Virus record (IMG/VR): IMGVR_UViG_3300042516_005302
Span: 1-40,215 of that record
Length of the DNA stretch: 40,215 nt
Source: a virus
Strand: one strand, 5' to 3'
Each line of letters begins with the position of its first letter. Position 1 is the first letter of the stretch. Positions 7,860 through 32,573 of the stretch are shown here, one piece after another. The notes under the pieces are model-generated. The model saw only the letters and a program-made list of their open reading frames with translations. It did not search any database and was not told the origin of the DNA. The translations under genes and the position numbers were made by a program.

Positions 7860-8954
7860 ATGGACAAAGACCTATTAAAATCATTAGAAATTTTAGATGA
7901 CGGTAATCCTTTTGCGACATTCTTATCGCAATCAACCTTATCAGTTATTGATAAGTGGATTGATACAGGTTCATATGTTTTGAATGCTATTATCTCTGGT
8001 AAGATTCGTGGTGGTGGTATTCCTTCCGGAAGGGTTACTATGTTGTATGGAGAATCACAAACCTTTAAATCTTCTTTAGTAATGAAGATTTTAGCTAATG
8101 CGCAAAAGCAAGGAATGATTCCTGTTATCTTTGATACTGAGAACGCTGTAGATCCAGAAAGTGCTGCGCGATTAGGATTAGATACAACTAAAGTAAAATA
8201 TGTACCAACCTTCAATGTGGAGCAATGTCGTAATGCTATTCATAAATTTTTGACATCAGTTAAAGAAAAAGGCCAAGAAGGCAAATTCATTATTGCTATT
8301 GATTCATTGGGTAATCTTGAAAGTCAAATGGAACAATCTCGTATTGAAAAAGATTCAGTAGCACCAGATATGGGTTCGAGAGCAAGAGCTATTAAAACTC
8401 TATTAAGAACAGTAACACAGCTGTCTGCTATTACTAAGACGCCTGTTATTATTACCAATCACTTATATGATAATCCAGCTGAATTGCATCCTTCTTTAGT
8501 TAAGACTATGCCTGGCGGTAAATCAGTTATCTATATGCCTTCTGTTTCTGTGCAGTTAATGAGAAAGCCAGTTAAAGAAGATGTTGTTAAATCAGATTCA
8601 TCAGGATTGGCTACATTCCAAAGAAATTATGTTGGTATTATTATTCGTGCTTTGACTTCAAAGAATCGTTTTATTAAACCATATCTCGAAGGCGAATTAT
8701 ATGTATCATTTACTAACGGCGCTGACAAATATCATGGACTATTAGATCTTGCAGTAGGATTAGGTATTATTGAACAATCTGGTGCTACATATGCTTTTAA
8801 TGGAGAAAAGCTTGGATATGCAAAGAGCTTTTTAAATAATGTAGATTTTTGGGAAAATGATATCATTCCTTTAGTAGAAAAGAAGATTGCAGTTGAATGG
8901 GCTTATTCTTCATCTGAAGATCCAGAAGCTACTGAAGTGGAAGAAGAAGAATAA
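7860..8954 (+). CDS. uvsX: UvsX-like RecA-family recombinase
   Basis: 364 aa strand-exchange protein. Walker A is GESQTFKSS (64-72), the T4 UvsX variant form of the P-loop, and Walker B is FIIAIDSLG (about 141-149). Other RecA-type segments are PVIFDTENAVDP (about 91-102) and VIITNHLYDNPAE (about 198-210). The C-terminus is strongly acidic, ending in EATEVEEEE, as is common for UvsX. It forms the presynaptic filament on ssDNA coated by gp32 and drives recombination-dependent replication with gp46/47 and gp41. A TAATAT element ends 5 nt before the ATG, but no convincing -35 box is seen. An upstream ATG at 7852 is out of frame. Confidence 0.95.
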   Translation: MDKDLLKSLEILDDGNPFATFLSQSTLSVIDKWIDTGSYVLNAIISGKIRGGGIPSGRVTMLYGESQTFKSSLVMKILANAQKQGMIPVIFDTENAVDPESAARLGLDTTKVKYVPTFNVEQCRNAIHKFLTSVKEKGQEGKFIIAIDSLGNLESQMEQSRIEKDSVAPDMGSRARAIKTLLRTVTQLSAITKTPVIITNHLYDNPAELHPSLVKTMPGGKSVIYMPSVSVQLMRKPVKEDVVKSDSSGLATFQRNYVGIIIRALTSKNRFIKPYLEGELYVSFTNGADKYHGLLDLAVGLGIIEQSGATYAFNGEKLGYAKSFLNNVDFWENDIIPLVEKKIAVEWAYSSSEDPEATEVEEEE

Positions 8955-8957
8955 ATA
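8950..8957 (+). promoter_or_regulatory. T4-type late promoter
   Basis: AATAAATA ending 5 nt before ATG 8963, overlapping the uvsX stop codon. The transcription start would fall on the start codon. Confidence 0.7.
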
Positions 8958-8962
8958 ATATC

Positions 8963-9376
8963 ATGCAAAATGATACAGATTTAATCTTCGAAGCTTATAA
9001 AGAAATCTATTCAGAAGGATGGAAAGATTGGGTTGCAGGTGCGGGTATGGCACTTGCAGCTGCAATGGGAGTAGGTGCTATTAAGCATGCCGCTACAGAA
9101 TTTAAAACTGGATTACCTTCGTTAAATGTACCAAAGCAATTGGATTCAAACAAAGTAGATACATATCTCGGGAAAGTAGCACATATTGCTGGCCTAGATT
9201 TGTCAAAAGCTGACGATTCAGATCGAGAAATGCTGAGTGGTAATTTAAAGAAACATTACGAAGCATTGAAAATGATTAGACAACATGGTACTGAATCTCA
9301 ACAAAAGTCTGCAGCTCATATCATGCAAACGATGAAAAATGTAGCAGGTAATAAATATAATCTAGAGAGATTATAG
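8963..9376 (+). CDS. Late protein, putative internal head protein, function unknown
   Basis: 137 aa, not recognised by family. The N-terminus MQNDTDLIFEAYKEIY resembles T4 capsid-targeting peptides and contains IFE-A (residues 8-11), fitting the (L/I)xE-(A/G/S) prohead protease rule. A hydrophobic Ala/Gly-rich segment (about residues 24-41: VAGAGMALAAAMGVG) follows, then a Lys-rich helical C-terminus with mostly polar residues. It sits just after uvsX but has its own late promoter, so it is expressed with virion genes rather than with replication genes. Packaging in the capsid is an inference from the N-terminus and promoter; a small membrane-active protein is the main alternative because of the hydrophobic segment. 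Confidence 0.7.
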   Translation: MQNDTDLIFEAYKEIYSEGWKDWVAGAGMALAAAMGVGAIKHAATEFKTGLPSLNVPKQLDSNKVDTYLGKVAHIAGLDLSKADDSDREMLSGNLKKHYEALKMIRQHGTESQQKSAAHIMQTMKNVAGNKYNLERL

Positions 9377-9379
9377 TAT

Positions 9380-9407
9380 TTGATAAAAAAATATTTGTTT
9401 TTATAAT
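9380..9407 (+). promoter_or_regulatory. Sigma70-like promoter for the queC-like gene
   Basis: TTGATA (9380-9385), 16-nt spacer, perfect TATAAT (9402-9407), then 6 nt to ATG 9414. The best sigma70-type match in the window; predicts a leaderless early mRNA. Confidence 0.72.
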
Positions 9408-9413
9408 AACCAC

Positions 9414-10157
9414 ATGACTAATACTCATGTGGTTATTCCTTTTTCTGGGGGTATGGATTCCTCCGTACTTGTACATCTGGCTCTATCAGAAGGATACTTT
9501 GTACATGTTTTATCCTTTAATTATGGCCAACGGCATTCACAAGAATTAGATTGTGCTGCTAAACAAATTCAAAAATTAAAGTCATTATATCCTAATTTGA
9601 AGTCATATAAGACTATCGATGTTTCTTATATTAAAGATATTGCACCCACATCATCATTAACCAATAATGATATTGAAACACCGGATGTACGTAAAATTAA
9701 AGGCGAAGCACAACCAAAATCATATGTTCCGAATCGCAATATGATGTTTCTATCTATCGCAGCAGCTTGGGCAGAATCAATAGGTGCATCAGAAGTATGG
9801 CATGGTGCTGCACAAGCAGATTCATTAGCAGGTTATTGGGACGGATCACCGGAATTCTTAGAATCAATTAATAATGTTCTTTCTTTGAATAGAGAAAAGA
9901 GAATTGAAATCAAAGCACCATTAATTGAATTAAGTAAAGCAGAAATTATTAAATTAGGTGTAAAGAATAAAGTAGACTTTGGATTGACCTACACCTGTTA
10001 TTCGGGCGAAGAAAAGCCAGATGCTTATTCAGCATCATCATCTTTAAGATTACAAGGCTTTATAGAAGCAGGTTATAAAGACCCACTTCAATATAAACAA
10101 CAAGATCAATTAGAAGAAGTATATAGTAAAAGAGGATGTAAAGAAATTATCCTCTAA
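9414..10157 (+). CDS. queC: QueC-like PP-loop ATPase (7-cyano-7-deazaguanine synthase family), zinc site lost
   Basis: 247 aa. The PP-loop FSGGMDSSV (10-18) and the QueC signatures SFNYGQRHSQEL (34-45) and YVPNRNMMFLS (104-114) identify the family, whose standard members make preQ0 from carboxydeazaguanine. Two regions differ from standard QueC. The substrate region that usually reads GYPDCRPEF is GYWDGSPEF (140-148). The zinc cluster C-x7-C-x2-C-x2-C keeps only C195; the other positions are D203, S206 and S209. The enzyme therefore may not be a conventional preQ0 synthase. No queD, queE, folE or transglycosylase gene is in the window, but a class II glutamine amidotransferase lies about 1.3 kb downstream. 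Its 3' end overlaps the convergent reverse-strand gene by 11 nt. Confidence 0.88.
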   Translation: MTNTHVVIPFSGGMDSSVLVHLALSEGYFVHVLSFNYGQRHSQELDCAAKQIQKLKSLYPNLKSYKTIDVSYIKDIAPTSSLTNNDIETPDVRKIKGEAQPKSYVPNRNMMFLSIAAAWAESIGASEVWHGAAQADSLAGYWDGSPEFLESINNVLSLNREKRIEIKAPLIELSKAEIIKLGVKNKVDFGLTYTCYSGEEKPDAYSASSSLRLQGFIEAGYKDPLQYKQQDQLEEVYSKRGCKEIIL

Positions 10158-11403
10158 ACAATTCTTCCATACGATAAGCAAACTGTTTGCGTTTAATATA
10201 TTGTTCTTGTAATAAACGATCAGTTTGCTGTCTGGTTAATTTAACAGATTCTTTGTATGAAGTTAATGCATTTACAATTTCTTCATACATCTCTGCAACA
10301 TCTTCATTATTATATGTCAATACTGAAAGATTTTCGATTAACTGATCTACGAAATCTGATGCTGAACCCATTCTTAATGTTTCAACTGCAGAAATAATTC
10401 CTTCTGCTACATCATCATTATCTGCAATAATATTATTGAATTTTTGTAAAATTGCTGTTAGTAATTGCAAGGCTTTTAATTTATCTTCTTTAATAGGAGT
10501 TTCTTCTTCTTGTTTGATTTTGGCAGTTACTCCATTTATCTTACTAAGAACTTTTGACCACTCATTTACTTTAAATCTCACATCAGGTGTTGCTTCATCA
10601 CCACCTCGCTTAGCAACATATTCTTGAGAAGCAAGAGTAGCTTTATGCGCCCAAATACTGGTAGATACATCTTGCATGTAATCAGTTGGTTTACCTTCGA
10701 CAGAAGATTTTAAATTTTCAATTAAGGTATTTGCCGCTGTAGTAATAACTTTGGAACCAAACCCTTTGATTTTTAAATCATATATTTTTTGCAACGAAAT
10801 GCGATGCTCTACAACACCATGACGAATTCGATTGCCCATTGCATCAAACAATCCAGTTGCTTCTTTTTCTAAAATTTTATATTGCTGTACGAAATCGTTA
10901 AAAGCTAAAAATTGATCTTGTGTATTCTTTACAAGAATCATGCCATTAATACCATCATCCGTATTTTCGTTCTTAATAACATTAGCTCCATCGATTTTAA
11001 ATGATATATTTGCATCACCTTTTCTAGCGAAATAAATCATATCGCCAATAGCAAAATCAGATGACTTACCAGTAAATGTCGCATCACCTGTTATATTAAT
11101 CAAACCATCAACATCTGACACACTTAATTCGCCACCGTTTCTTGCTTCACTATCCTCTTGCCCTATTTTTGCTGCGAATTCATCATTTTTATTAGTACAA
11201 TCACGAATAATTGCAAAACGAAGCATTTTAATAATCAACTTATTAGTTCTGTCAATAGAACCCGTTTCAATGCTATTTGAATAATATTTTGCGGCATACA
11301 TTTCAACATACTTATTCAAGTCTCCAAAATATGTTTGTGGTGCTTCATTGATTAGAGTTTCATCAATACGTGCTGCCCAACCCGGTGCTCTTAAAATAGA
11401 CAT
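10147..11403 (-). CDS. Late protein with prohead-protease-like N-terminal site, function unknown
   Basis: 418 aa, not recognised. The N-terminus (first 21 residues) contains LINE-A (17-21), fitting a T4 prohead protease cut after E20. The rest is largely helical and charged, with a Gly/Asp-rich beta-like section (about 90-150) and a long helical C-terminal half. No membrane segment or enzyme motif is visible. It lies on the reverse strand between two forward early genes and has its own late promoter. That arrangement, with the N-terminal site, suggests a structural or internal head protein; its identity remains open. Its 3' end overlaps the queC-like gene by 11 nt with no terminator between. 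Confidence 0.75.
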   Translation of the reverse strand: MSILRAPGWAARIDETLINEAPQTYFGDLNKYVEMYAAKYYSNSIETGSIDRTNKLIIKMLRFAIIRDCTNKNDEFAAKIGQEDSEARNGGELSVSDVDGLINITGDATFTGKSSDFAIGDMIYFARKGDANISFKIDGANVIKNENTDDGINGMILVKNTQDQFLAFNDFVQQYKILEKEATGLFDAMGNRIRHGVVEHRISLQKIYDLKIKGFGSKVITTAANTLIENLKSSVEGKPTDYMQDVSTSIWAHKATLASQEYVAKRGGDEATPDVRFKVNEWSKVLSKINGVTAKIKQEEETPIKEDKLKALQLLTAILQKFNNIIADNDDVAEGIISAVETLRMGSASDFVDQLIENLSVLTYNNEDVAEMYEEIVNALTSYKESVKLTRQQTDRLLQEQYIKRKQFAYRMEELFRG

Positions 11404-11408
11404 AACTA

Positions 11409-11416
11409 TATTTATT
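11409..11416 (-). promoter_or_regulatory. T4-type late promoter
   Basis: AATAAATA read on the reverse strand, ending 5 nt before the ATG at 11403. It lies back-to-back with a forward sigma70-like promoter (11415-11442). Confidence 0.65.
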
Positions 11417-11442
11417 GATTTATTAAAAATTAAATGTAATAT
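11415..11442 (+). promoter_or_regulatory. Sigma70-like promoter for glutamine amidotransferase
   Basis: TTGATT (11415-11420), 16-nt spacer, TAATAT (11437-11442), with ATG at 11454, 11 nt further on. Confidence 0.5.
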
Positions 11443-11453
11443 GATAGCATATT

Positions 11454-12140
11454 ATGTGCTCAATCTATGGTTCCAAAGACAGAAATCTCTTTGATATACT
11501 TCATGATGTTACTATCGATAGAGGTAGTTTTGCTTCGTCGTTTGCTTTTCTTGAACATAAAAAGAGAAATTTATTCATTACAAGATTAAAAGGTCATCCT
11601 AAAAAAATGGAATCAATGAATCCAGAAGAAATTTTTAATACATGTAAGAATAAAAATATAACACATTATCTTGGACATAATCAAGCACCAACTTCTTCAC
11701 AACGTGAACATGATGTTGCTACATCACATCCATTTGTTGCACATAATTGGGTTGTAGCACATAATGGTGTATTAACAAATTATAAGGATATAAACAAAAA
11801 GTATTGTGCATGGAATAAGAATCCAGTAGATTCAAGCAATATTCCACATTTACTACATGCATTAGAAACAAAATCACCAGAGAAGTCAGAAGAAGAAATT
11901 ATTTGCGAAGGGCTTTCTCTTTTAGAAGGTACATTTGCATTATGGATCTTCAATGAAAAGACCGGTAATATTTTCCTTGCCAGACAAGGTAGTACTTTAT
12001 TTGCTAATGAAAAAGGAGACTTTTGTTCTATACAATCAAAGAATTGGTTGGAATTAGAAGAAGGGGTACTTTATAAAGTAACCAGAAAGCTTGAATTAGT
12101 AGGCAATTTTAAAAACACAACACCATTTTTTACATTATGA
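11454..12140 (+). CDS. Class II glutamine amidotransferase (Ntn hydrolase)
   Basis: 228 aa, a stand-alone GATase II domain. After Met removal Cys2 (MCSIYG) would be the N-terminal nucleophile that releases ammonia from glutamine. Family motifs follow in order: DRGSFASS (about 22-29), LGHNQAPTSS (about 74-83), SHPF (about 91-94), VVAHNGVLTNY (about 99-109) and LEGTFALWIF (about 157-166). There is no synthetase domain on the same chain, so the ammonia acceptor must be a partner protein. The gene overlaps the following glycosyltransferase as ATGA (12137-12140), suggesting coupling, and the QueC-like gene is about 1.3 kb upstream. A split Gat-QueC-type amidotransferase is one hypothesis; an amidated sugar is another. 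Confidence 0.88.
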   Translation: MCSIYGSKDRNLFDILHDVTIDRGSFASSFAFLEHKKRNLFITRLKGHPKKMESMNPEEIFNTCKNKNITHYLGHNQAPTSSQREHDVATSHPFVAHNWVVAHNGVLTNYKDINKKYCAWNKNPVDSSNIPHLLHALETKSPEKSEEEIICEGLSLLEGTFALWIFNEKTGNIFLARQGSTLFANEKGDFCSIQSKNWLELEEGVLYKVTRKLELVGNFKNTTPFFTL

Positions 12141-12832: not shown

Positions 12833-12840
12833 TATAAGGC

Positions 12841-14166: not shown

Positions 14167-14194
14167 TTGCATAACATTCCATTTTGACTATATA
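14167..14194 (+). promoter_or_regulatory. Weak sigma70-like promoter
   Basis: TTGCAT (14167-14172), 16-nt spacer, TATATA (14189-14194) overlapping TATACT (14193-14198), before ATG 14206. Either -10 box could be used; weak prediction. Confidence 0.35.
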
Positions 14195-14205
14195 TACTCA
14201 TATCA

Positions 14206-17269: not shown

Positions 17270-18004
17270 ATGAAATTATCTTTTAAGAATAAGAATAGTT
17301 TTTGTAATAATTTCCTATCACCCATTTCAAGGCTGTCAGATTTAGCTATTCTGACAGCTAAGAATAATGAAATCATTTCATTAAACAAAACGGCAGACAA
17401 TAATAGTATTCTTTATGCTCGTTGTTCAGATGCATCTATTGATAATGATCAACAAGTATTATTGAATATTCCTGATGTAAAGAAATTCATTAAAGCATTT
17501 GATTGCATTGAAGATCAAAATATTGAACTACAAATCAATTCAAACAATATTGAATATAAATCACCAAAAATTAAATTTAAGTATCATTTGCTTGAAGATG
17601 GTATTATTGCTCCTGTTGGTTTATCTTTGAATAAAATTCAATCATTTGATTTTGATGTAGAATTTACGATTGACATTGTTACTTTCCAAAACCTACTTAA
17701 ATGCAGCACATTCAATAATAGTGAAAAGATTTATTTCTATTCAGATAATGGAGAAATCCATTGTGAATTAACTGATAAGAGTAAACATAATGTAGATAGT
17801 TTTACAACCGTTCTCGCTGAAACATATCAAGGTAATGCATTATCGAAACCAATGCCATTCTTATTTGATGTAGTTCGTAGTATCTCTACATTAAGATCTA
17901 GTCAATTGCAATTCAAGATTAATTCCAGTAAAGGTATCTTATGTGTTGAAGTAGAAGAACCAGGATATTACCTAAAATATATTACTACAGCAAAAGTGAT
18001 TTAA
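17270..18004 (+). CDS. 45: Sliding clamp, gp45-like
   Basis: 244 aa (T4 gp45 is 228). It begins MKLSFKNKNSFCNNF, very like the MKLS start of T4 gp45, and shows the all-over pattern of a two-domain clamp: short beta strands with Asp/Asn turns (LLNIPDVKKFIKAFD near residue 64-78, FQNLLKCSTF near 139-148) and a C-terminal ECVE-like strand pair. In T4-type phages the trimeric clamp holds the polymerase on DNA and also activates late transcription with gp33 and gp55, consistent with the many NATAAATA promoters here. Clamp loader genes (44, 62) are not in the window. Divergent sequence, hence moderate confidence. Confidence 0.75.
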   Translation: MKLSFKNKNSFCNNFLSPISRLSDLAILTAKNNEIISLNKTADNNSILYARCSDASIDNDQQVLLNIPDVKKFIKAFDCIEDQNIELQINSNNIEYKSPKIKFKYHLLEDGIIAPVGLSLNKIQSFDFDVEFTIDIVTFQNLLKCSTFNNSEKIYFYSDNGEIHCELTDKSKHNVDSFTTVLAETYQGNALSKPMPFLFDVVRSISTLRSSQLQFKINSSKGILCVEVEEPGYYLKYITTAKVI

Positions 18005-18029: not shown

Positions 18030-18377
18030 ATGAATAAGAGACAAAAAAATAAAATATCTACTCCGGGGTATTTTATTAAAAGACTCAGAGATTGCGGATT
18101 TAATGTAGTTCGTATTTTTCAGAAATATGGGGCCCATGATCCTCGAAGATGGACTGTATTGATTGATCCGGGTAGGGCATCCATCTTTGTTACTTGTTTT
18201 ACTAATAAAACATTCATTGATGAAATCTATTTTGAATTGAATGACGGTGGTATTTTGTTTCCTAAAAATTTTGCCATTTCAACCCAATCTATTGAAGTAA
18301 TTGTATCCCATTTAAACGAGAAAAATATTCAAACAATTGACGAAAAAAGCCCATACTATGTTGAAAAGAATAAATAA
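18030..18377 (+). CDS. Small basic protein, function unknown
   Basis: 115 aa, not recognised. Very basic N-terminus (MNKRQKNK), then IKRLRDCGFNVVRIFQKYG and DPRRWTVLIDPG (about 38-49), followed by a beta-rich stretch (SIFVTCFTNKTFIDEIYFELNDGG). The mix of basic helix and small alpha/beta domain suggests nucleic-acid binding, but there is no clear motif. It follows the clamp gene by 25 nt; its stop codon lies inside the late promoter of the next gene. Confidence 0.7.
   Translation: MNKRQKNKISTPGYFIKRLRDCGFNVVRIFQKYGAHDPRRWTVLIDPGRASIFVTCFTNKTFIDEIYFELNDGGILFPKNFAISTQSIEVIVSHLNEKNIQTIDEKSPYYVEKNK
18369..18376 (+). promoter_or_regulatory. T4-type late promoter
   Basis: AATAAATA ending 5 nt before ATG 18382; it overlaps the stop codon of the preceding gene. 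Confidence 0.65.
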
Positions 18378-18381
18378 TTCT

Positions 18382-18699
18382 ATGGGCGAAAATCCCGATG
18401 ATAAGAAGAAAAGAATTCCAAAAAATAATTCTGAAAAAATCGGGAAAGATCAGATCAAACAACTTTTAAAAGAAGCACTACAAGCTGATTTATTAGAACG
18501 TTCTCGTAAATCCATAGATAATAAAGTAGCTATTTCGTCTACTCTAGAGGAATTCATGAAATGTTTTATTGTATTGGGATACGACATGAACGGAAATCCA
18601 ATCAACTTAGTCCATGCAAACAGCCAACAAGACGCAGATTCCCTTTCTACGGCGGTTAATAAATTCTTTGTTCAAAACAATAACCCAGATATGTTTTAA
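18382..18699 (+). CDS. Late-expressed small protein, function unknown; may be extended by frameshifting
   Basis: 105 aa. The ATG at 18382 is chosen because a late promoter ends 5 nt before it; an in-frame TTG at 18337 would give 15 more residues inside the previous gene. The N-terminus is Lys/Asp-rich and probably disordered, then helical (IKQLLKEALQADLLERS), then EEFMKCFIVLGYDMNGN and a C-terminus ending FFVQNNNPDMF. The hydrophobic-acidic end resembles clamp-binding tails, which is only a suggestion. The last codons ATG TTT TAA (18691-18699) offer a TTTT slip site into the next reading frame, which continues for 83 codons. Confidence 0.7.
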   Translation: MGENPDDKKKRIPKNNSEKIGKDQIKQLLKEALQADLLERSRKSIDNKVAISSTLEEFMKCFIVLGYDMNGNPINLVHANSQQDADSLSTAVNKFFVQNNNPDMF

Positions 18700-18949
18700 G
18701 GTTCCAAAAAAAGGAACAATATTTGGGGTTATTGGTGGTGATTATACCGGCAAAATGTTTGTTTTAATTGGCAGTTCTTTAACAGACTGTCATTTTTTAA
18801 CTTTGCCTGATATTAAGAATCAAACTGTTTCAAAATTTGAATTAAAACGGGGTATTAAAGACGGTGTTTTAGAAAAAGTAGAAATATTACCACGAGATAT
18901 GTATCTTTTTTTAAAAGAACAATATTTATATAATAAAAAGCATAAATAG
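18614..18949 (+). CDS. Small protein, function unknown; true start unclear (possible +1 frameshift product)
   Basis: The nominal ATG start (18614) gives 111 aa, but the first 28 codons overlap the preceding gene and look unlike a natural N-terminus. The region that reads as a normal protein starts at about 18698 (KVPKKGTIFGVIGGDYTGKM), with no ATG or GTG near; TTG 18668 is the nearest alternative. The preceding gene ends TTT TAA AGG-like sequence in which a +1 slip on TTTT would join it to this frame and give one 188-aa product. The protein looks like a small beta-rich domain followed by a Lys-rich helix (MYLFLKEQYLYNKKHK). An A7 run inside a short inverted repeat (18702-18718) lies just after the junction. 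Confidence 0.55.
   Translation: MQTANKTQIPFLRRLINSLFKTITQICFKVPKKGTIFGVIGGDYTGKMFVLIGSSLTDCHFLTLPDIKNQTVSKFELKRGIKDGVLEKVEILPRDMYLFLKEQYLYNKKHK
18941..18948 (+). promoter_or_regulatory. T4-type late promoter
   Basis: CATAAATA ending 5 nt before ATG 18954, overlapping the end of the previous gene. Confidence 0.68.
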
Positions 18950-19180: not shown

Positions 19181-20206
19181 ATGATCATCTTGCCTGAAGA
19201 ATATATAGCACAAAAATTCTTCCAACATGCTGGTGCACCTAAGCACAATCGTTTTAATAAAACGTATGTAGGATCATGCCCAATATGCAGAGAAGGTAAG
19301 TCTTGGTTAAAAAAACAACGTTGTTATTACATTCCAAAAAATAACAATATATATTGTCATAACTGTGGTTGGAGTTCTACACCACTTTCATGGATTCAAG
19401 AAGTAACAAGAATGTCTATAATAGACATTAAGAAAGAATTAGAGAATTATTCTACAGTATCATTAGATGATATAACAACAGAGAAGAAAGAAATTATTCC
19501 TTCTTCAACATTACCAGAAGATTGCATCAATCTGTTTGATGAACAACAAGTAGAATATTACAAAGATGAAACCGTTGTTATTCGCGCATTAGAATTTATT
19601 AAAGCAAGAAGGCTAGATACTGCATGTAATAGGCCAAAGGCCCTTTATATTTCATTAACAGATCCTGTTCATAAAAATAGATTAGTCATTCCATTCTTCG
19701 ATAAAAACAATAAGATCATTCACTATCAAACCAGAACAATCTTGTCTGCGGACAATAAGATTAAACCTCGTTATATCTCAAAAATTAATAGCGAGAAGAC
19801 TATGTTTAATATAGATCAGATCAATGATGATAATGAAGTGTTTATCTTTGAAGGTCCGTTGAATTCTTGCTTTGTTAAAAATGGAATAGCAGTTGCCGGT
19901 ATTCAAGATGAATCAGAAAAGTTATTCTCTATGAAACAACAAGATCAAATAAATTCATTATTAATGAAGGATTTTGTTTGGGTACTAGATTCACAGTGGA
20001 TTGATCAAGCAGCAAAGAAGAAAAGTCAAATCTTAGCTAAGAAGGGAGAAACACTTTTTATATGGCCAGAGAGTATAGGTAAAAAGATTAAAGACTTTAA
20101 TGACTTAGCTATTGCATTAAAGCTAAATGAAATACCTAAAGATTTTATTATGAAGAATTCCTTTAAAGGAATATCAGCAGAAATAAGATTGAAAGCAATG
20201 TATTAA
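19181..20206 (+). CDS. 61: DNA primase gp61
   Basis: 341 aa (T4 gp61 is 342). The N-terminal zinc ribbon has CPIC (33-36) and CHNC (59-62). The Toprim part has EVFIFEGPLNSC (about 223-234) with the catalytic Glu, and WVLDSQWID (about 267-275) as the Asp motif. The domain order zinc ribbon, linker, Toprim matches the DnaG/gp61 family. It makes RNA primers with the gp41 helicase encoded 5 kb upstream. The stop codon overlaps that of the convergent reverse-strand gene in the palindrome TTAA (20203-20206). Confidence 0.92.
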   Translation: MIILPEEYIAQKFFQHAGAPKHNRFNKTYVGSCPICREGKSWLKKQRCYYIPKNNNIYCHNCGWSSTPLSWIQEVTRMSIIDIKKELENYSTVSLDDITTEKKEIIPSSTLPEDCINLFDEQQVEYYKDETVVIRALEFIKARRLDTACNRPKALYISLTDPVHKNRLVIPFFDKNNKIIHYQTRTILSADNKIKPRYISKINSEKTMFNIDQINDDNEVFIFEGPLNSCFVKNGIAVAGIQDESEKLFSMKQQDQINSLLMKDFVWVLDSQWIDQAAKKKSQILAKKGETLFIWPESIGKKIKDFNDLAIALKLNEIPKDFIMKNSFKGISAEIRLKAMY

Positions 20207-20633: not shown

Positions 20634-20641
20634 TATTTATT
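20634..20641 (-). promoter_or_regulatory. T4-type late promoter
   Basis: AATAAATA on the reverse strand, ending 5 nt before the start codon at 20628. Divergent from the forward late promoter at 20649-20656. Confidence 0.68.
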
Positions 20642-20648: not shown

Positions 20649-20656
20649 GATAAATA
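20649..20656 (+). promoter_or_regulatory. T4-type late promoter
   Basis: GATAAATA ending 5 nt before GTG 20662. The fixed spacing supports that GTG as start rather than GTG 20647, which lies upstream of the promoter. Confidence 0.65.
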
Positions 20657-20661: not shown

Positions 20662-21021
20662 GTGAGAAGACGTTTTTTTACAGAAGATAATACAATTGCA
20701 GATGCAAATCGTAATGTGACTGGAATTGGTCCTGATACATCTGATTCTTCTCTAACAGATTTAAAAAAACAAATTTCAAGTGAAGTTGAAACACCCAAGA
20801 TTTTACCTCACCAATTTCAATCCTCTGTAATTATACCACAAATTGCCAATTATATTGTTGAGCTTAAAGGTTTATCAGACAAAATTAGTGATTATAGCAA
20901 ATCAGATGTTGCGTCTGAATCAAAAAAGATGATTGCAAGTAAACTAATTGATCGCATTAATAAGATCAATGCTATTTTCGCACAAGACATTATTAAGTAT
21001 CTTGATAAATTGTCTTTTTAA
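20662..21021 (+). CDS. Late small protein, function unknown
   Basis: 119 aa from GTG 20662 (chosen from the promoter spacing; GTG 20647 adds five residues). N-terminus MRRRFFTEDNTIADANR, then polar, Ser/Thr/Asp-rich sequence and two helices (QIANYIVELKGLSDKISDY, MIASKLIDRINKINAIF). No recognised family. Paired head-to-head with the preceding reverse-strand late gene; both products are small, helical and soluble, so they may belong to the same virion substructure. This is inference from promoter type and pairing. Confidence 0.68.
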   Translation: MRRRFFTEDNTIADANRNVTGIGPDTSDSSLTDLKKQISSEVETPKILPHQFQSSVIIPQIANYIVELKGLSDKISDYSKSDVASESKKMIASKLIDRINKINAIFAQDIIKYLDKLSF

Positions 21022-22953: not shown

Positions 22954-22970
22954 TAAAAGTATTTAATAAC

Positions 22971-22978
22971 TATAAATA
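22971..22978 (+). promoter_or_regulatory. T4-type late promoter
   Basis: Perfect TATAAATA ending 6 nt before ATG 22985. Confidence 0.75.
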
Positions 22979-22984
22979 ATTTCA

Positions 22985-24052
22985 ATGTCCGGAAATGCAC
23001 GTTTTCATGATAAATTACACAGAGCAAACCACCACACGTTATCTACCAGTGGATTGCTGGACAGTGCATATGATCCTATAGCTTCACCAGATTTTCCTTT
23101 TAGAGGTGATTTTATATTAAGTGGCGGATTGTCGGCATTGGGTGGATTAACTGCAAATAATTTAAATATCCGTAGTGAAATTACAATAGATGGTAATAGC
23201 ACGACCCAAAACCAAACTATCGTTGGCAAATTAAAATTGTCTCTTCCAAGTTACGGTGGTACAGTAATATACGCCCAAAATTCTACGCCAAATCCTTTAG
23301 ATTATTCACTTACATTAAACTATGAAAACGGAGTATTTGTGTCACATGGTTTAATTGTAAATGGCACATTATCAGCAAATTTTCCAGAATCCGGCGGCAC
23401 AATACCAACTGCTAATGATATATCAAATGCATATGTAACACTCAAAACAAATAGTGCTACTAATTGGTCTTATCAAGGAGCTGATCTTAAGGCTTTATCA
23501 TCTAACTGGCAAAGTACATATACAACTGTAACTGCTAATAGTGCTACTAATTGGTCTTATCAAGGAGCTGATCTTAAGGCTTTATCATCTAACTGGCAAA
23601 GTACATATACAACTGTAACTGCTAATAGTGGGAATTGGTTATCCAAAACAAGTATTGTATCAGCTGCATCTGCAAGTTTTAATAATTTATCTGCAGGATA
23701 TGTGTTGTTAAAATCTTATGCCCAGACACGTGTAATTGCTAGTAATCCTAGCGGATTGGTTCCTATCGACTTATCTTTAGGGACTGTGTTTACTCTAGAC
23801 CTTACTAATAGTGTATCAACAGGATTTTCGATAGTCAATGTACCTGTCGGCGTCAATTCATTTAATTTATTGTTGACTCAAGATGGTACTGGATCTAAAA
23901 CAGTAAATTTTAATTTCATTTCAAAGACACTCAGATGGAGTGGTGGTGCACCTACTATGACATCAACAGCTAATGCTACTGATATATACTCTTTTATGAC
24001 TGTCGACGGCAATACATGGTATGGGTCAGTAATCGGCCAGAATTTCGTGTAG
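22985..24052 (+). CDS. Fibre-like structural protein with tandem repeats
   Basis: 355 aa. Rich in Ser, Thr, Asn and Gly with few charged residues, typical of trimeric fibre or head-decoration proteins. The centre holds two identical 29-residue repeats (NSATNWSYQG...TTVTA). The C-terminal part (SLGTVFTLDLTNSVSTGFSI, NSFNLLLTQDGTG, TDIYSFMTVDGNTWYG) matches the beta-structured tails seen in many T4-like virion structural proteins. Perfect late promoter. Divergent from the lectin/Ig-like gene, with 31 nt between the two start codons. Exact virion location is unknown. Confidence 0.78.
   Translation: MSGNARFHDKLHRANHHTLSTSGLLDSAYDPIASPDFPFRGDFILSGGLSALGGLTANNLNIRSEITIDGNSTTQNQTIVGKLKLSLPSYGGTVIYAQNSTPNPLDYSLTLNYENGVFVSHGLIVNGTLSANFPESGGTIPTANDISNAYVTLKTNSATNWSYQGADLKALSSNWQSTYTTVTANSATNWSYQGADLKALSSNWQSTYTTVTANSGNWLSKTSIVSAASASFNNLSAGYVLLKSYAQTRVIASNPSGLVPIDLSLGTVFTLDLTNSVSTGFSIVNVPVGVNSFNLLLTQDGTGSKTVNFNFISKTLRWSGGAPTMTSTANATDIYSFMTVDGNTWYGSVIGQNFV
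23450..23623 (+). repeat. Two perfect 87-bp tandem repeats inside the fibre-like gene
   Basis: Units 23450-23536 and 23537-23623 are identical base for base as read; a third unit begins at 23624 (AATAGTG) and then diverges. Each encodes 29 residues, in frame. The lack of silent differences indicates a recent duplication. Confidence 0.95.
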
Positions 24053-24054: not shown

Positions 24055-24360
24055 TTAAAAATCACCACCCTGAACAACATCAATATCTCTTTGAATGAAA
24101 TCATTCATAGTGTCATTAACATTATTAATAACAATATTTTTAATTTGATTAAAAGCAACTGATGGTGGTTGGACAATTTGATCACCGTCTCCGCCTTCAC
24201 CTTCTTCAGGACCTACCGAAAATCCGCCATAGACTGAAGTATCATTCACAGACATATCAAAATAGAGTTTGCTTTCTTCGTCTGTACTACCCGGGTAAAC
24301 TTTTCTCGGTGTTGGTGATGATCCTGGTATTGGCATAAAATTAAAAGTCTCCTCCATCAT
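24055..24360 (-). CDS. Small acidic protein after the neck gene, function unknown
   Basis: 101 aa, Pro/Gly/Glu-rich and mostly disordered-looking, with EEGEGGDGD in the middle and a helical end (NQIKNIVINNVNDTMNDFIQRD) finishing QGGDF. Its start overlaps the end of the gp14-like gene by 20 nt; that upstream protein also ends GGDF. It is the last gene of a reverse-strand late operon, so a small virion or assembly protein is likely. An alternative start at 24357 differs by one residue. Confidence 0.65.
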   Translation of the reverse strand: MMEETFNFMPIPGSSPTPRKVYPGSTDEESKLYFDMSVNDTSVYGGFSVGPEEGEGGDGDQIVQPPSVAFNQIKNIVINNVNDTMNDFIQRDIDVVQGGDF

Positions 24361-25147
24361 CAGATGGGTCAGGTGTTGGTTCTAAAGATCCTCCATCTAA
24401 GGCATCGGCAAAGTCTCCAACATAATCCCCCAATTCATCGGGGAAATTATTTTCCACCAGGCTTTCCACAAAAGTTACTGGTATATTATTGGTTAATGGA
24501 TCTTCGGTAATATTAGTAGATAACAATCCAGCAAATGTATCATCATATACTTGATCATTTTTAGATTCACCAGATATACCTGGTTGGAAGGAATACTCTA
24601 AGCGCTTGGCTGCTAATCTCCATGTATAGTGCCCACCTAATGGGTTAATTTCTGAAATATCTTGGTCGCGCCTTTCAGTAATGATAAAATAATTACCAGC
24701 TCTTCCATGTGATCTAGTACTACCATACTCAGTCATACAAAATACATCACCAGCTTTTGGTTCTACTGGCTGGTCTAAACTCATGTAAATCCAATCTTCT
24801 GCAAATATTCTCTTATAACCTTGTATAGAGACGAAAGCTGTGATTTCATCCTCTGCATTAAATCCAAATTTTGATAGGGCCAAAGATGATTCGCTGAGAT
24901 TAATAATCATCTTCATCTGATAAGGACCATGATATACCATGGTAGGCTGTTCACCATAGAGATTATCCGCACTTACTGGTTGATAGGTATTAACATAATA
25001 TTCTACTTTTTGACCTAAAAGATTAATTGATTCATCAACAGAATTCTGAATTAGCTGCATGTCTGGTTGCAGTCTGTTTTTGTCATATAATTCATAACAA
25101 AGACTACCATTTCCTGCTCCCGAATAATAACATGTATAAGTAGACAT
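24341..25147 (-). CDS. 14: Neck protein gp14-like
   Basis: 268 aa (T4 gp14 is 256). Features in common with T4-type gp14 are the N-terminal helix after which DNLYGEQPT appears, KFGFNAEDEITAFVSIQGYKR (quoted start only), PKAGDVFCMTEYG, a GRAGNYFIITERR segment and a C-terminal WRLAAKRLEYS strand. The C-terminal about 40 residues are acidic and low complexity, ending DDGGDF. In T4 gp14 joins gp13 to form the neck that connects head and tail. It follows the 117-aa gene by one base and overlaps the small acidic gene downstream. Homology is judged by eye, so confidence is moderate to good. Confidence 0.75.
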   Translation of the reverse strand: MSTYTCYYSGAGNGSLCYELYDKNRLQPDMQLIQNSVDESINLLGQKVEYYVNTYQPVSADNLYGEQPTMVYHGPYQMKMIINLSESSLALSKFGFNAEDEITAFVSIQGYKRIFAEDWIYMSLDQPVEPKAGDVFCMTEYGSTRSHGRAGNYFIITERRDQDISEINPLGGHYTWRLAAKRLEYSFQPGISGESKNDQVYDDTFAGLLSTNITEDPLTNNIPVTFVESLVENNFPDELGDYVGDFADALDGGSLEPTPDPSDDGGDF

Positions 25148-25507: not shown

Positions 25508-25515
25508 TATTTATG
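25508..25515 (-). promoter_or_regulatory. T4-type late promoter for the neck operon
   Basis: CATAAATA on the reverse strand, ending 5 nt before the start codon at 25502. Confidence 0.7.
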
Positions 25516-25522: not shown

Positions 25523-25555
25523 AAAAAAAGAGACTCTATTTTCATAGAGTCTCTT
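25523..25555 (-). terminator. Rho-independent terminator
   Basis: Read on the reverse strand: stem AAGAGACTCTA / TAGAGTCTCTT (25528-25555) with a six-base loop, followed by seven T (25523-25529 complement). It ends transcripts of the acidic head-protein gene before the neck operon. Confidence 0.88.
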
Positions 25556-25575
25556 AGATTTAATTAAAATTAAAA

Positions 25576-26310
25576 TTAAGAACCGAAGATTGTTCCAGCT
25601 GTACTGAATCCAGCGACCTTATTGTTCTTGTTCTGAAGAGTTTCAGCTTTTGCACCAAGTGGTTTTGGTTCAGCTTGAAGAGGAGCTAAACTACCCGTGT
25701 GTGCTTTTCCGCCAGCTGCTTTGTACTTAGAAGAAACCTTATTGTCTCTCTTTTGAAGAGTCTCTGCTTTGGCGCCAAATGGTTTTGGCTCAGCAACTAC
25801 TTCAATGGATTCACCCATTGCGCCTTCTTCTTCTCCACCTTCTTCTCCGCCTTCACCATCAAGTTCTCCTTCTTCTTCTTCTCCTTCTTCTTCACCTAAT
25901 CCATCACCCATGGCTCCTTGAATAAGGCCAATGAGCTTCTCAGCTGTAGCACGATCAAGAGTAATAGTTACTTCATCACCACCACCGAGATCTTCTCCAC
26001 CTTCTCCACCACCAACTTCGATGCCGAGATCACCAGCGTCATCTCCACCACCAAATTCAGAACCTGACATTACGTCTTCAAATAGTTTGTCGAATAAAAA
26101 TTTACTCATATTGGATGTATTTATACTTTCTTTAGCTACTTTTTCACAAGAGTCACAACTTTCTTCTCTTTTTGAAAGATCTTTTTCTTCTGGTTCCGGT
26201 ACACCCAGAGAAGATACCCCTTTCTTACCAGCTAGGGTCGGTGGTGTCATGTAAGGATGAATTTTCTTATCAGAGGTATTCTGAAATGTTGGTGAGCCTT
26301 TTTTATTCAT
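25576..26310 (-). CDS. Acidic head-type protein with internal repeat; two possible starts
   Basis: 244 aa from 26310, or 177 aa from Met68 at 26109. Both starts have a perfect TATAAATA shortly upstream, so two products are likely. The Met68 start gives MSKFLFDKLFEDVMSGSEF, like a capsid-targeting or core-protein N-terminus. The middle is a Glu/Gly-rich acidic region (about 88-165). The C-terminal part holds two near-identical 20-residue repeats at 173-192 and 213-232 (AEPKP...AETLQ...NKV, 16 of 20 identical). The 67-residue N-terminal extension has CDSC and is Lys/Pro-rich. Composition suggests a prohead core or scaffold-associated protein. It is followed by a strong terminator. Confidence 0.72.
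   Translation of the reverse strand: MNKKGSPTFQNTSDKKIHPYMTPPTLAGKKGVSSLGVPEPEEKDLSKREESCDSCEKVAKESINTSNMSKFLFDKLFEDVMSGSEFGGGDDAGDLGIEVGGGEGGEDLGGGDEVTITLDRATAEKLIGLIQGAMGDGLGEEEGEEEEGELDGEGGEEGGEEEGAMGESIEVVAEPKPFGAKAETLQKRDNKVSSKYKAAGGKAHTGSLAPLQAEPKPLGAKAETLQNKNNKVAGFSTAGTIFGS
26118..26125 (-). promoter_or_regulatory. T4-type late promoter inside the gene
   Basis: Perfect TATAAATA on the reverse strand, 8 nt before the internal ATG at 26109. Confidence 0.6.
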
Positions 26311-26319
26311 ATAGATAAC

Positions 26320-26327
26320 TATTTATA
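26320..26327 (-). promoter_or_regulatory. T4-type late promoter
   Basis: Perfect TATAAATA on the reverse strand, 9 nt before the start codon at 26310. It fills the 18-nt gap to the divergent terminase start. Confidence 0.6.
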
Positions 26328-26328
26328 C

Positions 26329-28011
26329 ATGGGCAGACAAAAAGTCTATTTGAATAATCCTAATCTACCAACAGTCGATGCACAGTTTGATTATGGTATT
26401 GAAGAGATTAAAGAAATTAAAAAATGTCAAGACAATATATTGCATTTTGCTGAAAATTACTTTCACATTATTGCACCAGATGATGGTAAAATTAAAATAC
26501 CGCTTTTTACTTATCAAAAAAAAGCATTGCGTATGATGAGAGATAATCGCTTCTCTTTATTATTATTTGCTAGACAAAGTGGTAAAAGTACCATATCAAC
26601 CATATATTGTTTATGGACAGCATGTTTTAATGAACATCAAAATATTTTGATTGTTGCAAACAAAGAAAGTACAGCAAAAGAAATTTTTAAGAGAATACGT
26701 TTAGCATATGAAGAGTTGCCTAACTGGTTAAAACCCGGTGTTAAAGAATATGGTAAGGAGTCTATGGAGTTGGCTAATGGATCCCGTATAGGTATTACTA
26801 CAACAACGGGTTCTGCAGGTCGCGGTAGTTCAGCTAATTTATTATTTGTGGATGAAACGGACTGGATTGAAAAAAACTTGCTTGAAAGTTTTTGGGCGTC
26901 AGTATATCCTATTATCTCCAACTCGAAAAAGTCAAAAATTATCATGGCTTCTACACCTAGAGATACTGCGGGGTTGTTTTTTAAATTATATGACGGTTCG
27001 GTAAAGAATGAAAATAATTGGGTACACATGAAAGTACCATGGTATGATATTCCAGGGAGAGATGAAAAATGGAAAAAAGAAACAATGGCATCTCTGGCTT
27101 CACCAGAAGACTTTCTTAGAGAGTTTGAATGTATATTTGATGAAGTGGGTGAAGCCTCTATTAATGCCGCAACATTTGATACACTAAGAACCAAAGCTTC
27201 TATGCCTGACCATGTTTATATGAACGGATCATATAAGATATGGGACTTGCCTAAGCAAGGTAGAATTTATGTAGCTGGTGTTGATGTAGCAGAAGGCGTA
27301 GGTAAGGATAATACAGTAATACAAATATTAGATTTAACTGATTTGAGATCAATTAATCAAGCAGCAATATATACATGCAATACTATTACTCCGATTGAAT
27401 TTACTAGCAAATTGCACGAAATACTAGTACAATGGGGATCACCATTACTTCTTATAGAAAGAGACAAATGCGGTGCACAAGTAGTAGATAATCTGAGAAA
27501 AGATTATCAGTATGAAAATATTATTTCACATGGTTATAAAGAATTAAATCGAAGTGTGATACCGTTAGGCGTCGTTTGTCATACCAATACAAAATATGAT
27601 AATGTTATTAATCAAAGATACTGGATTAATACATTGGATGCAGTTAAAATAAATGATCTACAAACTGTTGAGGAACTAAGAGACTTCGTGAGGATGCCTA
27701 ATGGAACATGGAAAGCTAAAAATGATAAACATGACGATAGGGTTATGTCATTAGGATGGGCTTTATTAATACTTCATGAAAAATTAATATCAAAATATTT
27801 TGAAGTAATTACAATGGATGAAAATAATAAGCCAGCTGTTATCAGACCATATGATTGGGGTGTTGGAACATTTAAAAATCCTGGTTCCCTATACAATAAT
27901 GAAATAGATACTGGAAACTATAATGTCATTCCTACATTTGTTGGAAATGGATTTGGTTTTGATACTGATTTAAATGATTTAATGCAATCTGGATGGAAGC
28001 CACTACAATGA
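26329..28011 (+). CDS. 17: Large terminase subunit gp17
   Basis: 560 aa DNA-packaging motor (T4 gp17 is 610). The ATPase domain has Walker A FARQSGKS (80-87), Walker B LLFVDETD (171-178) and the coupling motif MASTPRDT (about 206-213). The nuclease domain has the acidic motifs AGVDVAEG (316-323), LLIERDKCG (about 376-384) and KHDDRVMSLGWA (about 464-475). Its start is 19 nt from the divergent head-protein gene; no clear promoter of its own is seen. The small terminase gene is not identified in the window. The last codons overlap the late promoter of the following gene. Confidence 0.96.
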   Translation: MGRQKVYLNNPNLPTVDAQFDYGIEEIKEIKKCQDNILHFAENYFHIIAPDDGKIKIPLFTYQKKALRMMRDNRFSLLLFARQSGKSTISTIYCLWTACFNEHQNILIVANKESTAKEIFKRIRLAYEELPNWLKPGVKEYGKESMELANGSRIGITTTTGSAGRGSSANLLFVDETDWIEKNLLESFWASVYPIISNSKKSKIIMASTPRDTAGLFFKLYDGSVKNENNWVHMKVPWYDIPGRDEKWKKETMASLASPEDFLREFECIFDEVGEASINAATFDTLRTKASMPDHVYMNGSYKIWDLPKQGRIYVAGVDVAEGVGKDNTVIQILDLTDLRSINQAAIYTCNTITPIEFTSKLHEILVQWGSPLLLIERDKCGAQVVDNLRKDYQYENIISHGYKELNRSVIPLGVVCHTNTKYDNVINQRYWINTLDAVKINDLQTVEELRDFVRMPNGTWKAKNDKHDDRVMSLGWALLILHEKLISKYFEVITMDENNKPAVIRPYDWGVGTFKNPGSLYNNEIDTGNYNVIPTFVGNGFGFDTDLNDLMQSGWKPLQ

Positions 28012-28017
28012 TAAATA
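28010..28017 (+). promoter_or_regulatory. T4-type late promoter
   Basis: GATAAATA ending 5 nt before ATG 28023, overlapping the terminase stop codon. The spacing favours ATG 28023 over ATG 28008. Confidence 0.7.
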
Positions 28018-28022
28018 GAAGC

Positions 28023-29279: not shown

Positions 29280-29281
29280 AT

Positions 29282-29878: not shown

Positions 29879-29881
29879 AAA

Positions 29882-29910
29882 AGGACTCAAAAAAAGTATA
29901 AATAAGTCCT
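29882..29910 (+). repeat. Inverted repeat around the sheath gene promoter
   Basis: AGGACT (29882-29887) and AGTCCT (29905-29910) form a 6-bp stem whose 17-nt loop contains the TATAAATA box. The stem ends 2 nt before the sheath ATG. Confidence 0.6.
29897..29904 (+). promoter_or_regulatory. T4-type late promoter for tail sheath
   Basis: Perfect TATAAATA, 8 nt before ATG 29913, flanked by an inverted repeat. Confidence 0.75.
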
Positions 29911-29912
29911 AT

Positions 29913-32549
29913 ATGAGAACTATTCAGTCACCTGGTGTTGAAATACGCGAAATTGACGCGTCACAAATTGCATTTCAACCTACCGGAACAAATGTATTTT
30001 TAGCAGGATTTGCTCAAAGAGGACCAACAGATGAAGTATTACAAATTACTTCTGTTCAAGAACTCGAACAAATTTATGGTGCACCAGTAACACCAGCAGA
30101 GCGTTATTTTTATCATTCTGCGAAGCAAATTGTAACTGACTCCAATGCCAATTTATATGTAAATAGGTTGCCATACGGCCCTGGTGCGGGTTATGGATAC
30201 GGTTCGTCATATGGTGCACTTGTTTATCCGTTGGTTACCTTAGAAGAAACAGATTCTTTAGTCTGGCGAACCTCAAAATCAATCTCCGCAAGTGCTTTTG
30301 ATTTTTCTAGTAGTGGATTTGATCTTTCACAAATAACAACAGTTGCAGAACCTGAGTTTAGCAGTACTCAAATCGTTACATTAACCAGCTCTGGTATATC
30401 TTTTTATAACAAAGAATTATCGGTTTTAGACGATTTGAGCCTCTTTAAATTAAACACGTTAGTTGGTATGTTCGGAAATCCAGCTACTTTAGTTGAAGCT
30501 CAAAATACCATAACAAATACATTCATTTCAGGAGCTGAAGTCTCAGTAACGAATAATATTAGTGTTTCAGCTGGTACTTATGTACTAGGTGCACCTAAAT
30601 TTTTCGAATTGACATTAGATCAATATAACAGTGTAATTGAAGGTACTGGATTTAATTGGTCTAGTACTTCAGATGCTTTGTCAAATATTAATACAATTGC
30701 TGATTTCGGTAAGGCTGGATTAATTCTTTTGAATAAAGGTCAAACAGTAACTGAAGCACAAGCAGAAGGATTCTATGCTGCTATTACTGATAATACCAAT
30801 GCAGAACCTACTTCTGATCATGATAGCATATTAAATGCATATACAGTAACACAGTCGGCCCCATCAACCGGACTTTTTGGAAATGGATTCACACAAATCC
30901 CATCAGAGAGATTAAATTTCGCCCTTTCGGGTGGTTCTGATACAGGAGTAGTTCGTGACGATTCAAATATCTCATATAATCTTGAGCGCACATTTTATAA
31001 TTTCCCGGATTCAACTACCGAAAAATTTGATGATACTCTTTCAATAAGTGTTTATAAATTAAGAAGATCAATTTACACCCCAGATGCAATTAAGATGGAT
31101 TATGTTTTAGAGCGTAATCATATCGGTTCACTTGATTTTAATCGCAAAATTCAAGATGTTAATGGAGGTGAGGCTGTATCTTACTTTATTTCAGCGCCAC
31201 AAAAAGAAAGTAGAGCTGTTAAAATTATTGTTAATGATAATATCACCAATAGAGGTAGTGATACCTGGCTCAATGAAGTAGGGGTACCACGCAAAAAAGT
31301 GCGTCTTTATACGAGATCCACTATCAACGCATTAGCAGCTGATAATACAACAGGCAAGCGTTTCGGTGGTTACTACCAAGACTACGTTGCGCTATCATCT
31401 GTTCTAGGTTACAGCGATGCATTATATCCTACCGGGCCCTATACTAATCTAAATGCAAAGACAAAAGACATAGGTAACTTACCTTCTAAGATTGAAAATG
31501 CGTTGTATAAGGTTGAAAATGATGAACAATTTGATCTTGATCTAGTTGTAGAGGGCGGATTGGGTACAATTTATACAACATGTTGCGCAAACCAAGTATC
31601 ATATTTTGATGATACTGTTGTGTCTGATAATTTTGCAACGGGATTAAGCTTACTCAAGACAACTGGTGAATATATATCACCAGTTGATGCATCACAAGAT
31701 CTCAGATCATTATATCATACCATCTTCTCAAGATTTGATACATTCTGTTCATCTGCTAGAAAGGATTGTATGTTCATCGCTGACCCATTAAGACAAATAT
31801 TCGTCAAAGGCGATAATAGTAAAGTGTTACCCAATGCAAATAATTCATTCTCTAGAGATATCTATACAGCATTAAAACACTTATTTGAGCTCGCTAATTC
31901 AAATTATTCATGTTCTTATGGTAACTGGGCTAAAATATATGATGCCGTTGCTGGTTTAAATGTGTGGGTACCATTTTCTCCATATGCAGCTACTAGTTTT
32001 GTTAATACAGATTCAAATTATTATCCATGGTATGCTCCAGCTGGATTCACTAGAGGCAGGGTTCGCAACGTCCTTGAATTAGCTATTACGCCAAAGCAAA
32101 AGGAAAGAGATCAATTATATAAAATCTCAGTAAATCCTGTCGCATTCTTTCCCGGAGATGGCATTACTATCTTCGGTCAAAAGACAATGCAACGTCAACC
32201 AAGTGCATTTGATCGTATTAATGTAAGAAGATTATTCTTATATCTAGAAAAGGCTACTAAGAAGACTGTGAAATACTTCGTGTTTGAACCAAACACAACA
32301 TTCACCAGGACCCGTTTAGTTAATACATTGAATCCAATCTTTAATTTTGCTAAATCAACACAAGGTGTAGCAGATTATATGATCGTTTCAGATAAGAGAA
32401 ACAACACACCTGACTCAATTGATAATAATGAATTGGTTGTAGACATATATATCAAGCCAGTTAGAGCATCAGAATTCATTTTAGTGAACTTTATTGCTAC
32501 TAGAACCGGTGCTAGCTTCAGTGAATTGATTAGTGGTCCTCGTCTCTAA
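29913..32549 (+). CDS. 18: Tail sheath protein gp18
   Basis: 878 aa contractile sheath subunit, much longer than T4 gp18 (659). The N-terminus SPGVEIREIDASQ and FLAGFAQRGPTDEVLQI (about 32-48), and the C-terminal part with PWYAPAGFTRG (about 708-718), SVNPVAFFPGDGITIFGQKT (about 742-761) and VNVRRLFLYLEK-type helix, are diagnostic. The extra length lies mainly between about 100 and 400, where strand-rich Ser/Thr/Asn sequence suggests additional surface domains. It makes the outer contractile cylinder around the gp19 tube. Late promoter directly upstream. Confidence 0.95.
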   Translation: MRTIQSPGVEIREIDASQIAFQPTGTNVFLAGFAQRGPTDEVLQITSVQELEQIYGAPVTPAERYFYHSAKQIVTDSNANLYVNRLPYGPGAGYGYGSSYGALVYPLVTLEETDSLVWRTSKSISASAFDFSSSGFDLSQITTVAEPEFSSTQIVTLTSSGISFYNKELSVLDDLSLFKLNTLVGMFGNPATLVEAQNTITNTFISGAEVSVTNNISVSAGTYVLGAPKFFELTLDQYNSVIEGTGFNWSSTSDALSNINTIADFGKAGLILLNKGQTVTEAQAEGFYAAITDNTNAEPTSDHDSILNAYTVTQSAPSTGLFGNGFTQIPSERLNFALSGGSDTGVVRDDSNISYNLERTFYNFPDSTTEKFDDTLSISVYKLRRSIYTPDAIKMDYVLERNHIGSLDFNRKIQDVNGGEAVSYFISAPQKESRAVKIIVNDNITNRGSDTWLNEVGVPRKKVRLYTRSTINALAADNTTGKRFGGYYQDYVALSSVLGYSDALYPTGPYTNLNAKTKDIGNLPSKIENALYKVENDEQFDLDLVVEGGLGTIYTTCCANQVSYFDDTVVSDNFATGLSLLKTTGEYISPVDASQDLRSLYHTIFSRFDTFCSSARKDCMFIADPLRQIFVKGDNSKVLPNANNSFSRDIYTALKHLFELANSNYSCSYGNWAKIYDAVAGLNVWVPFSPYAATSFVNTDSNYYPWYAPAGFTRGRVRNVLELAITPKQKERDQLYKISVNPVAFFPGDGITIFGQKTMQRQPSAFDRINVRRLFLYLEKATKKTVKYFVFEPNTTFTRTRLVNTLNPIFNFAKSTQGVADYMIVSDKRNNTPDSIDNNELVVDIYIKPVRASEFILVNFIATRTGASFSELISGPRL

Positions 32550-32560
32550 TATAATTAAAC

Positions 32561-32568
32561 CATAAATA
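32561..32568 (+). promoter_or_regulatory. T4-type late promoter for tail tube
   Basis: CATAAATA ending 5 nt before ATG 32574. Confidence 0.72.
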
Positions 32569-32573
32569 AATAT

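Follow-up and report, generated by a model that had tools for sequence, protein, structure and literature searches.

Where do the late mRNAs of a T4-type phage begin? The question is raised by a stretch of viral DNA of 40,215 nucleotides (positions 1 to 40,215 of IMG/VR record IMGVR_UViG_3300042516_005302; hereafter the window), in which a first-pass annotation saw nine NATAAATA motifs ending exactly 5 nt before start codons and proposed that these are late promoters placed for leaderless mRNAs. T4 late transcription is a textbook system whose mRNAs are leadered and bear Shine-Dalgarno (SD) sequences.

The window and its phage

PHROG matches identify the window as a fragment of a T4-superfamily myovirus with a GC content of 32%; they include gp46, gp47, gp43, UvsX, gp41, gp32, gp45, gp61, head-closure Hc2, the large terminase gp17, the tail sheath gp18, and tail tube proteins. 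The window terminase has no match at ≥60% identity among annotated phages (the best among the matches listed is ∼38%), and judged by these comparisons the phage is a member of the T4 superfamily without a cultured close relative. Close relatives are present in IMG/VR, and four of them were read at length (G003, 77 kb; G007, 98.6 kb; G009, 84 kb; and G011, 44 kb).

The gp43 DNA polymerase gene (4019-7389) is split by a group I intron (RF00028, 5631-5850, 114 bits) and also by a probable mini-intein at the YGDTDS motif (Pfam Intein_splicing, under the cut-off); its counterpart in G007 is a single uninterrupted ORF of 855 aa. A QueC-like queuosine gene lies at 9414-10157 and a glutamine-amidotransferase-like gene at 11454-12140; queuosine genes have also been reported in a Far-T4 genome (PMC7198788).

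Boxes at a constant distance from start codons

With the gap defined as the number of nucleotides between box end and start codon, all nine boxes are present at gap 5, as are four further boxes that had been placed at gaps 6 (22985), 8 (29913 and 26109, minus strand), and 9 (26310, minus strand). Two window genes beyond that list, 22953 (minus strand) and 35468, also fit at gap 6. The start at 26109 is an in-frame internal start within the gene that begins at 26310. The boxes are given here together with the gp45 gene.

8950..8957, plus strand: box AATAAATA, gap 5 to ATG 8963; overlaps the uvsX stop; gene 8963-9376, unknown
11409..11416, minus strand: box AATAAATA, gap 5 to ATG 11403; gene 10147-11403, unknown
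17270..18004, plus strand: gp45 sliding clamp homologue (phrog_223, E 6e-12); no box in front
18369..18376, plus strand: box AATAAATA, gap 5 to ATG 18382; gene 18382-18699
18941..18948, plus strand: box CATAAATA, gap 5 to ATG 18954
20634..20641, minus strand: box AATAAATA, gap 5 to ATG 20628; half of a divergent back-to-back pair
20649..20656, plus strand: box GATAAATA, gap 5 to GTG 20662; divergent partner of the preceding box
22960..22967, minus strand: box ATTAAATA, beyond the original list, gap 6 to ATG 22953; gene for a Hoc-like head decoration protein
22971..22978, plus strand: box TATAAATA, gap 6 to ATG 22985
25508..25515, minus strand: box CATAAATA, gap 5 to ATG 25502; heads a unit including head-closure Hc2 (24341-25147)
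26118..26125, minus strand: box TATAAATA, gap 8 to ATG 26109, an in-frame start within gene 25576-26310
26315..26321, plus strand: ATAACTA, a weak candidate for a degenerate box, gap 7 to ATG 26329; gene for large terminase gp17
26320..26327, minus strand: box TATAAATA, gap 9 to ATG 26310
28010..28017, plus strand: box GATAAATA, gap 5 to ATG 28023, DUF6267 protein
29897..29904, plus strand: box TATAAATA, gap 8 to ATG 29913, tail sheath gp18
32561..32568, plus strand: box CATAAATA, gap 5 to ATG 32574, tail tube
35454..35461, plus strand: additional box GTTAAATA, gap 6 to ATG 35468, 652-aa protein in the tail/baseplate region

The word ATAAATA occurs 17 times in the window versus 35.8 expected from shuffles, about half. 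Nine of these lie at gap 5 (control expectation, ∼0.2; P = 1.3e-13) and 13 at gaps of 5 to 9 (control expectation, ∼0.7; P = 1.2e-15), where the remaining 20 heptamers composed of five A and two T served as controls, and start codons were counted if they opened an ORF of at least 60 codons. In 5000 rotations of the start-codon set, no single gap collected more than 4 boxes, and the claim that the constant gap exceeds chance is borne out by both controls. The motif itself needs restating: the NATAAATA boxes are in place, but the conserved core is only TAAATA, and the first two letters vary. The boxes had also been used to pick the starts at 20662 (GTG), 18382, and 28023; all three recur at gap 5 in G003 and G007. 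In G011 the GTG of 20662 and its gap of 5 are unchanged, but the word before 28023 is GTAAATA and its gap is 7.

In the divergent pairs at 22960-22985 and 26310-26329, the promoter boxes overlap or abut, so that one short stretch seems to serve both strands.

Start-codon-proximal boxes across the clade

A genome-wide tally of box-to-start distances, suggested as a check of the first reading, did not give the broad distribution that would have spoken against it: distances peak sharply at gap 5 in the window, the long relatives, a 154.6-kb relative, and 63 related loci, the exception being the more distant member G009, in which the boxes are spread over gaps 5 to 7. The excess near start codons is found in all four long relatives; G007 has 34 TAAATA words at gaps of 5 to 9 versus 2.5 expected (P = 1.5e-28), and an unbiased count of 6-mers by distance placed TAAATA on top at gaps 5 and 6 in G007 and at gaps 5, 7, and 6 in G009; applied to T4, this count has TAAATA peaking at gap 28. 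In the 154.6-kb relative (G015), which comes closest to a complete genome, 34 sites at gap 5 compare with 2.1 expected (P = 1e-29). Across the 63 loci (722 kb), chosen in nearly all cases for terminases ∼43% or more identical to that of G009, TAAATA stands at gap 5 in 255 instances versus 9.9 expected. G012, with a terminase match of only 29% and 0 gap-5 sites, was rejected as a relative. In a terminase tree the clade representatives form one fully supported branch, separate from T4, cyanophages, pelagiphages, and alphaproteobacterial phages. The start-codon-proximal box is a trait of a whole uncultured T4-superfamily clade of aquatic phages, far wider than the window.

Gaps are constant for each orthologue (8 for the sheath, 9 for gene 26310, 5/5 for the divergent pair), while the spacer and the first box letter vary. 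The box before 8963 has the same gap in G003 and G007. Retained in G003, G007, and G011 are gap 5 before 18954 despite an altered spacer; the pair 20628/20662, two divergent boxes in a 33-nt gap, with changed intervening sequence and with the GTG and gap of the 20662 box; the 26109 box; gap 9 before 26310, with an altered first letter; and gap 8 before gp18. For the terminase, the same one-mismatch word stands at gap 7 in G007, and gap 7 is found in G011 as well. A few boxes lie at gaps of 0 to 2. With two late boxes (26310 and 26109), gene 25576-26310 possibly yields two protein forms.

Evidence for a T4-type late promoter

Boxes precede 94 of 167 recognizable virion genes in the clade versus 0 of 51 replication genes (P = 1e-15); G015, the 154.6-kb member, by itself has them on 8 of 11 virion genes and on 0 of 11 replication genes. 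In the long relatives boxes are also found before portal, PhoH, glycosyltransferase (gap 1), thymidylate kinase, and head-tail adaptor genes. Sequence information is confined to the box and the positions adjoining the start codon, and no −35 element was seen (≤0.11 bits at every position from −50 to −15). The Bacteroidetes −7 promoter TANNTTTG was considered as another candidate and is not enriched upstream of genes.

A pyrimidine and a purine at positions −1 and +1 are the usual signature of a transcription start. Among 280 unique gap-5 sites, 94% have a pyrimidine at −1 (box+5), compared with 48% of other ATG genes, and the next base of gap-5 sites (box+6) is A or G. Of 30 sites at gaps of 6 to 9 in the window's subclade, 23 have a purine at box+6, as do the leadered boxes of T4 (11 of 13) and Melnitz (9 of 9); the signature is weaker at gaps of 6 to 9 in G009 and in the gap-6 class of the wider clade.

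The geometry on which the first-pass annotation relied agrees with the published one: T4-like phages have TATAAATA at −13 to −6 (PMC1524935), so that +1 is the sixth base after the box. Homologues of gp55 (phrog_234, E 1e-24 to 1e-33) are encoded by G003, G007, G009, G013, G015, G020, and G021, with none in the window fragment; gp33 gave no phrog_254 match in these partial contigs, the protein being short. gp45, which the window encodes, is the activator of T4 late transcription. Taken together, the sequence evidence makes it very likely that the boxes are gp55-type (T4-type) late promoters giving mRNA leaders of 0 to 4 nt.

Translation signals, host, and alternative explanations

As the first reading had it, no SD sequence is visible at the box starts, and the remaining window genes have one in 11% of cases versus 10% in shuffles; throughout the window's subclade the non-box genes give no SD signal (11 to 18%, equal to shuffled). 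SD sequences precede 56 to 81% of genes in T4, Melnitz, Mosig, HTVC008M, and Cr30 (66% in HTVC008M), and the wider clade has a weak signal (35% versus 23% shuffled). Because the wider clade combines this weak signal with the gap-5 spike, loss of the SD was rejected as the sole source of leaderlessness. The missing SD in the window's subclade would be in keeping with a host that itself lacks SD sequences, Bacteroidota for example; Far-T4 phages have been linked to Bacteroidetes/Flavobacteriales (PMC7198788, PMC13037479). Flavobacterium is a likely host type, and its mRNAs, which are mostly leadered (PMC6847099), count against the leaderless reading. A host search through matches in bacterial genome contigs returned two remote matches only (31 to 33%) and was uninformative. 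Phage-coded bS21 (PF01165), a possible translation partner, was found in none of 15 records, and tRNA genes in none of three long relatives.

Could the AT-rich word act in the RNA instead, as an SD-less, Kozak-like or S1-type translation enhancer, with transcription starting further upstream? The absence of an SD signal in the window's subclade would suit this, as would the A-rich upstream contexts of Flavobacterium and other SD-less Bacteroidetes, which use A at −3 and −6 (PMC6847099), the box placing an A at −6. Replication genes, however, need translation as much as virion genes do and have no boxes; position −3 at gap-5 sites is T in 55% and A in 34%, so that a Kozak-like A is not favored; in T4 this word, placed at leader distance, serves as the late promoter; and the SD users HTVC008M and, within the clade, L060 and L071 still have gap-5 boxes. 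We consider this explanation improbable.

A slightly smaller chance still attaches to late promoters at which the host polymerase starts several nucleotides further down- or upstream, which would give some mRNAs a short leader or a start inside the gene. The range of gaps from 5 to 9, the presence of a few boxes at gaps of 0 to 2, and the many gap-6-class sites that fit a start at box+7 speak for such a shift, but at gap-5 sites the pyrimidine at box+5 and the purine at box+6 single out one position, and the leaders would be only a few nucleotides long even if the start were shifted. Chance clustering of A/T words, which a genome of 32% GC might invite, is refuted by the controls: composition-matched words have no spike, P values run from 1e-13 to 1e-29 in separate contigs, and the probability left to it is negligible. 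The T4-type late promoter remains by far the preferred reading.

Proposed mechanism and its implications

In the mechanism that we propose, the late sigma factor gp55, together with the clamp gp45, would direct initiation at the sixth nucleotide beyond the box. At gap 5, +1 would coincide with the initial A or G of the AUG/GUG start codon; at gaps of 6 to 9 it would lie 1 to 4 nt before the start codon. We infer this RNA 5′ end from the geometry and the Y(−1)/R(+1) signature. Most virion-gene mRNAs of the clade would then probably have neither a leader nor a ribosome-binding site, unlike those of T4, and mRNAs that are leaderless or nearly so would need leaderless, terminal-AUG initiation, with no SD pairing; this mode of translation is likewise predicted from sequence. 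Several boxes lie at gene junctions (8963, 18382, 18954, and 28023), and the genes behind them may in addition be transcribed as parts of longer mRNAs that do have leaders. Tentatively, the lineage may have fused its late promoter to the start codon, freeing late translation from the SD and leader context of the host, which may be favored late in infection as host initiation is disturbed.

If the proposal is correct, a widespread aquatic clade has the same promoter as T4 shifted by ∼22 nt, far enough for the mRNA to be expected to begin with the start codon. Late genes and their correct start codons could then be read directly from the boxes in genomes annotated mostly as “hypothetical protein,” and the clade would offer a system for studying the leaderless translation of abundant proteins. 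The boxes would also supply a late-transcription logic for Far-T4 genomes, in which core transcription genes were reported as undetected (PMC4360716), and for pelagimyophages, in which late-promoter prediction was reported as unsuccessful (PMC7029224).

Comparison with known systems

The clade resembles the T4 gp55/gp33/gp45 system, with its TATAAATA promoters at −13 to −6, in having an 8-bp box with a TAAATA core and no −35 element, boxes on virion genes, a purine at box+6, and encoded gp55 and gp45 homologues. It differs in that T4 boxes peak 27 to 28 nt before the start, with the SD in the leader, while the clade has gaps of 5 to 9 and variable first two box letters; the T4 stretch has two gap-5 TAAATA words versus 0.4 expected. 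The NATAAATA late promoters of cyanomyoviruses (S-PM2 and Syn9; PMC2984593) share the relaxed first letter, but the boxes in the Syn9 stretch lie 15 to 39 nt before the start; gap-5 sites are absent from the Syn9, XG4, phiM9, and Cr30 stretches.

The Pelagibacter phage HTVC008M (Kyanoviridae) has 12 gap-5 TAAATA words versus 1.0 expected, several of them exactly at GenBank CDS starts (gp2 at 18916, minus strand; gp48 at 19456; and gp25 at 31132). There, unlike in the window's clade, gap 5 is a minority mode beside leadered, SD-bearing late genes, and SD sequences are found genome-wide. Loci related to pelagiphages and cyanophages, grouped, contain 47 gap-5 sites versus 6 expected, with a pyrimidine at −1 in 47 of 47. 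These counts, with those for Syn9, XG4, phiM9, Cr30, and T4, indicate that the leaderless placement is the main mode in the window's clade and a minority mode in Kyanoviridae. Since HTVC008M is cultured, part of the proposal can be tested now.

Far-T4 phages are possible kin of the window's clade: both belong to the T4 superfamily and are aquatic and uncultured, and queuosine genes are a further point of resemblance. The Rhodothermus phage RM378 was rejected as a cultured clade member because it has no TAAATA spike. Its terminase forms a very long branch, and few of its genes match. Its loci (L211 to L213) have another word, TTATTTAA, fixed 6 nt before nine starts, and TATTTA at gap 7 in 12 cases versus 1.4 expected; TTATTTAA is perhaps another start-proximal promoter or a translation signal.

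Bacterial leaderless (TA-led) genes have a −10-type box ∼10 to 12 bp before the start codon and no SD (PMC3160421). The clade has the same features, a −10-type box at about −12 of the start codon and, in the window, no SD; the bacterial box is the sigma70-type TANNNT of the cell, whereas that of the clade is a phage late box on virion-type and not replication genes. A search of the open-licence literature found no report of leaderless late T4-type mRNAs. The boxes are best read as a variant of T4 late transcription shared by the whole clade, in which a familiar kind of promoter has a new placement.
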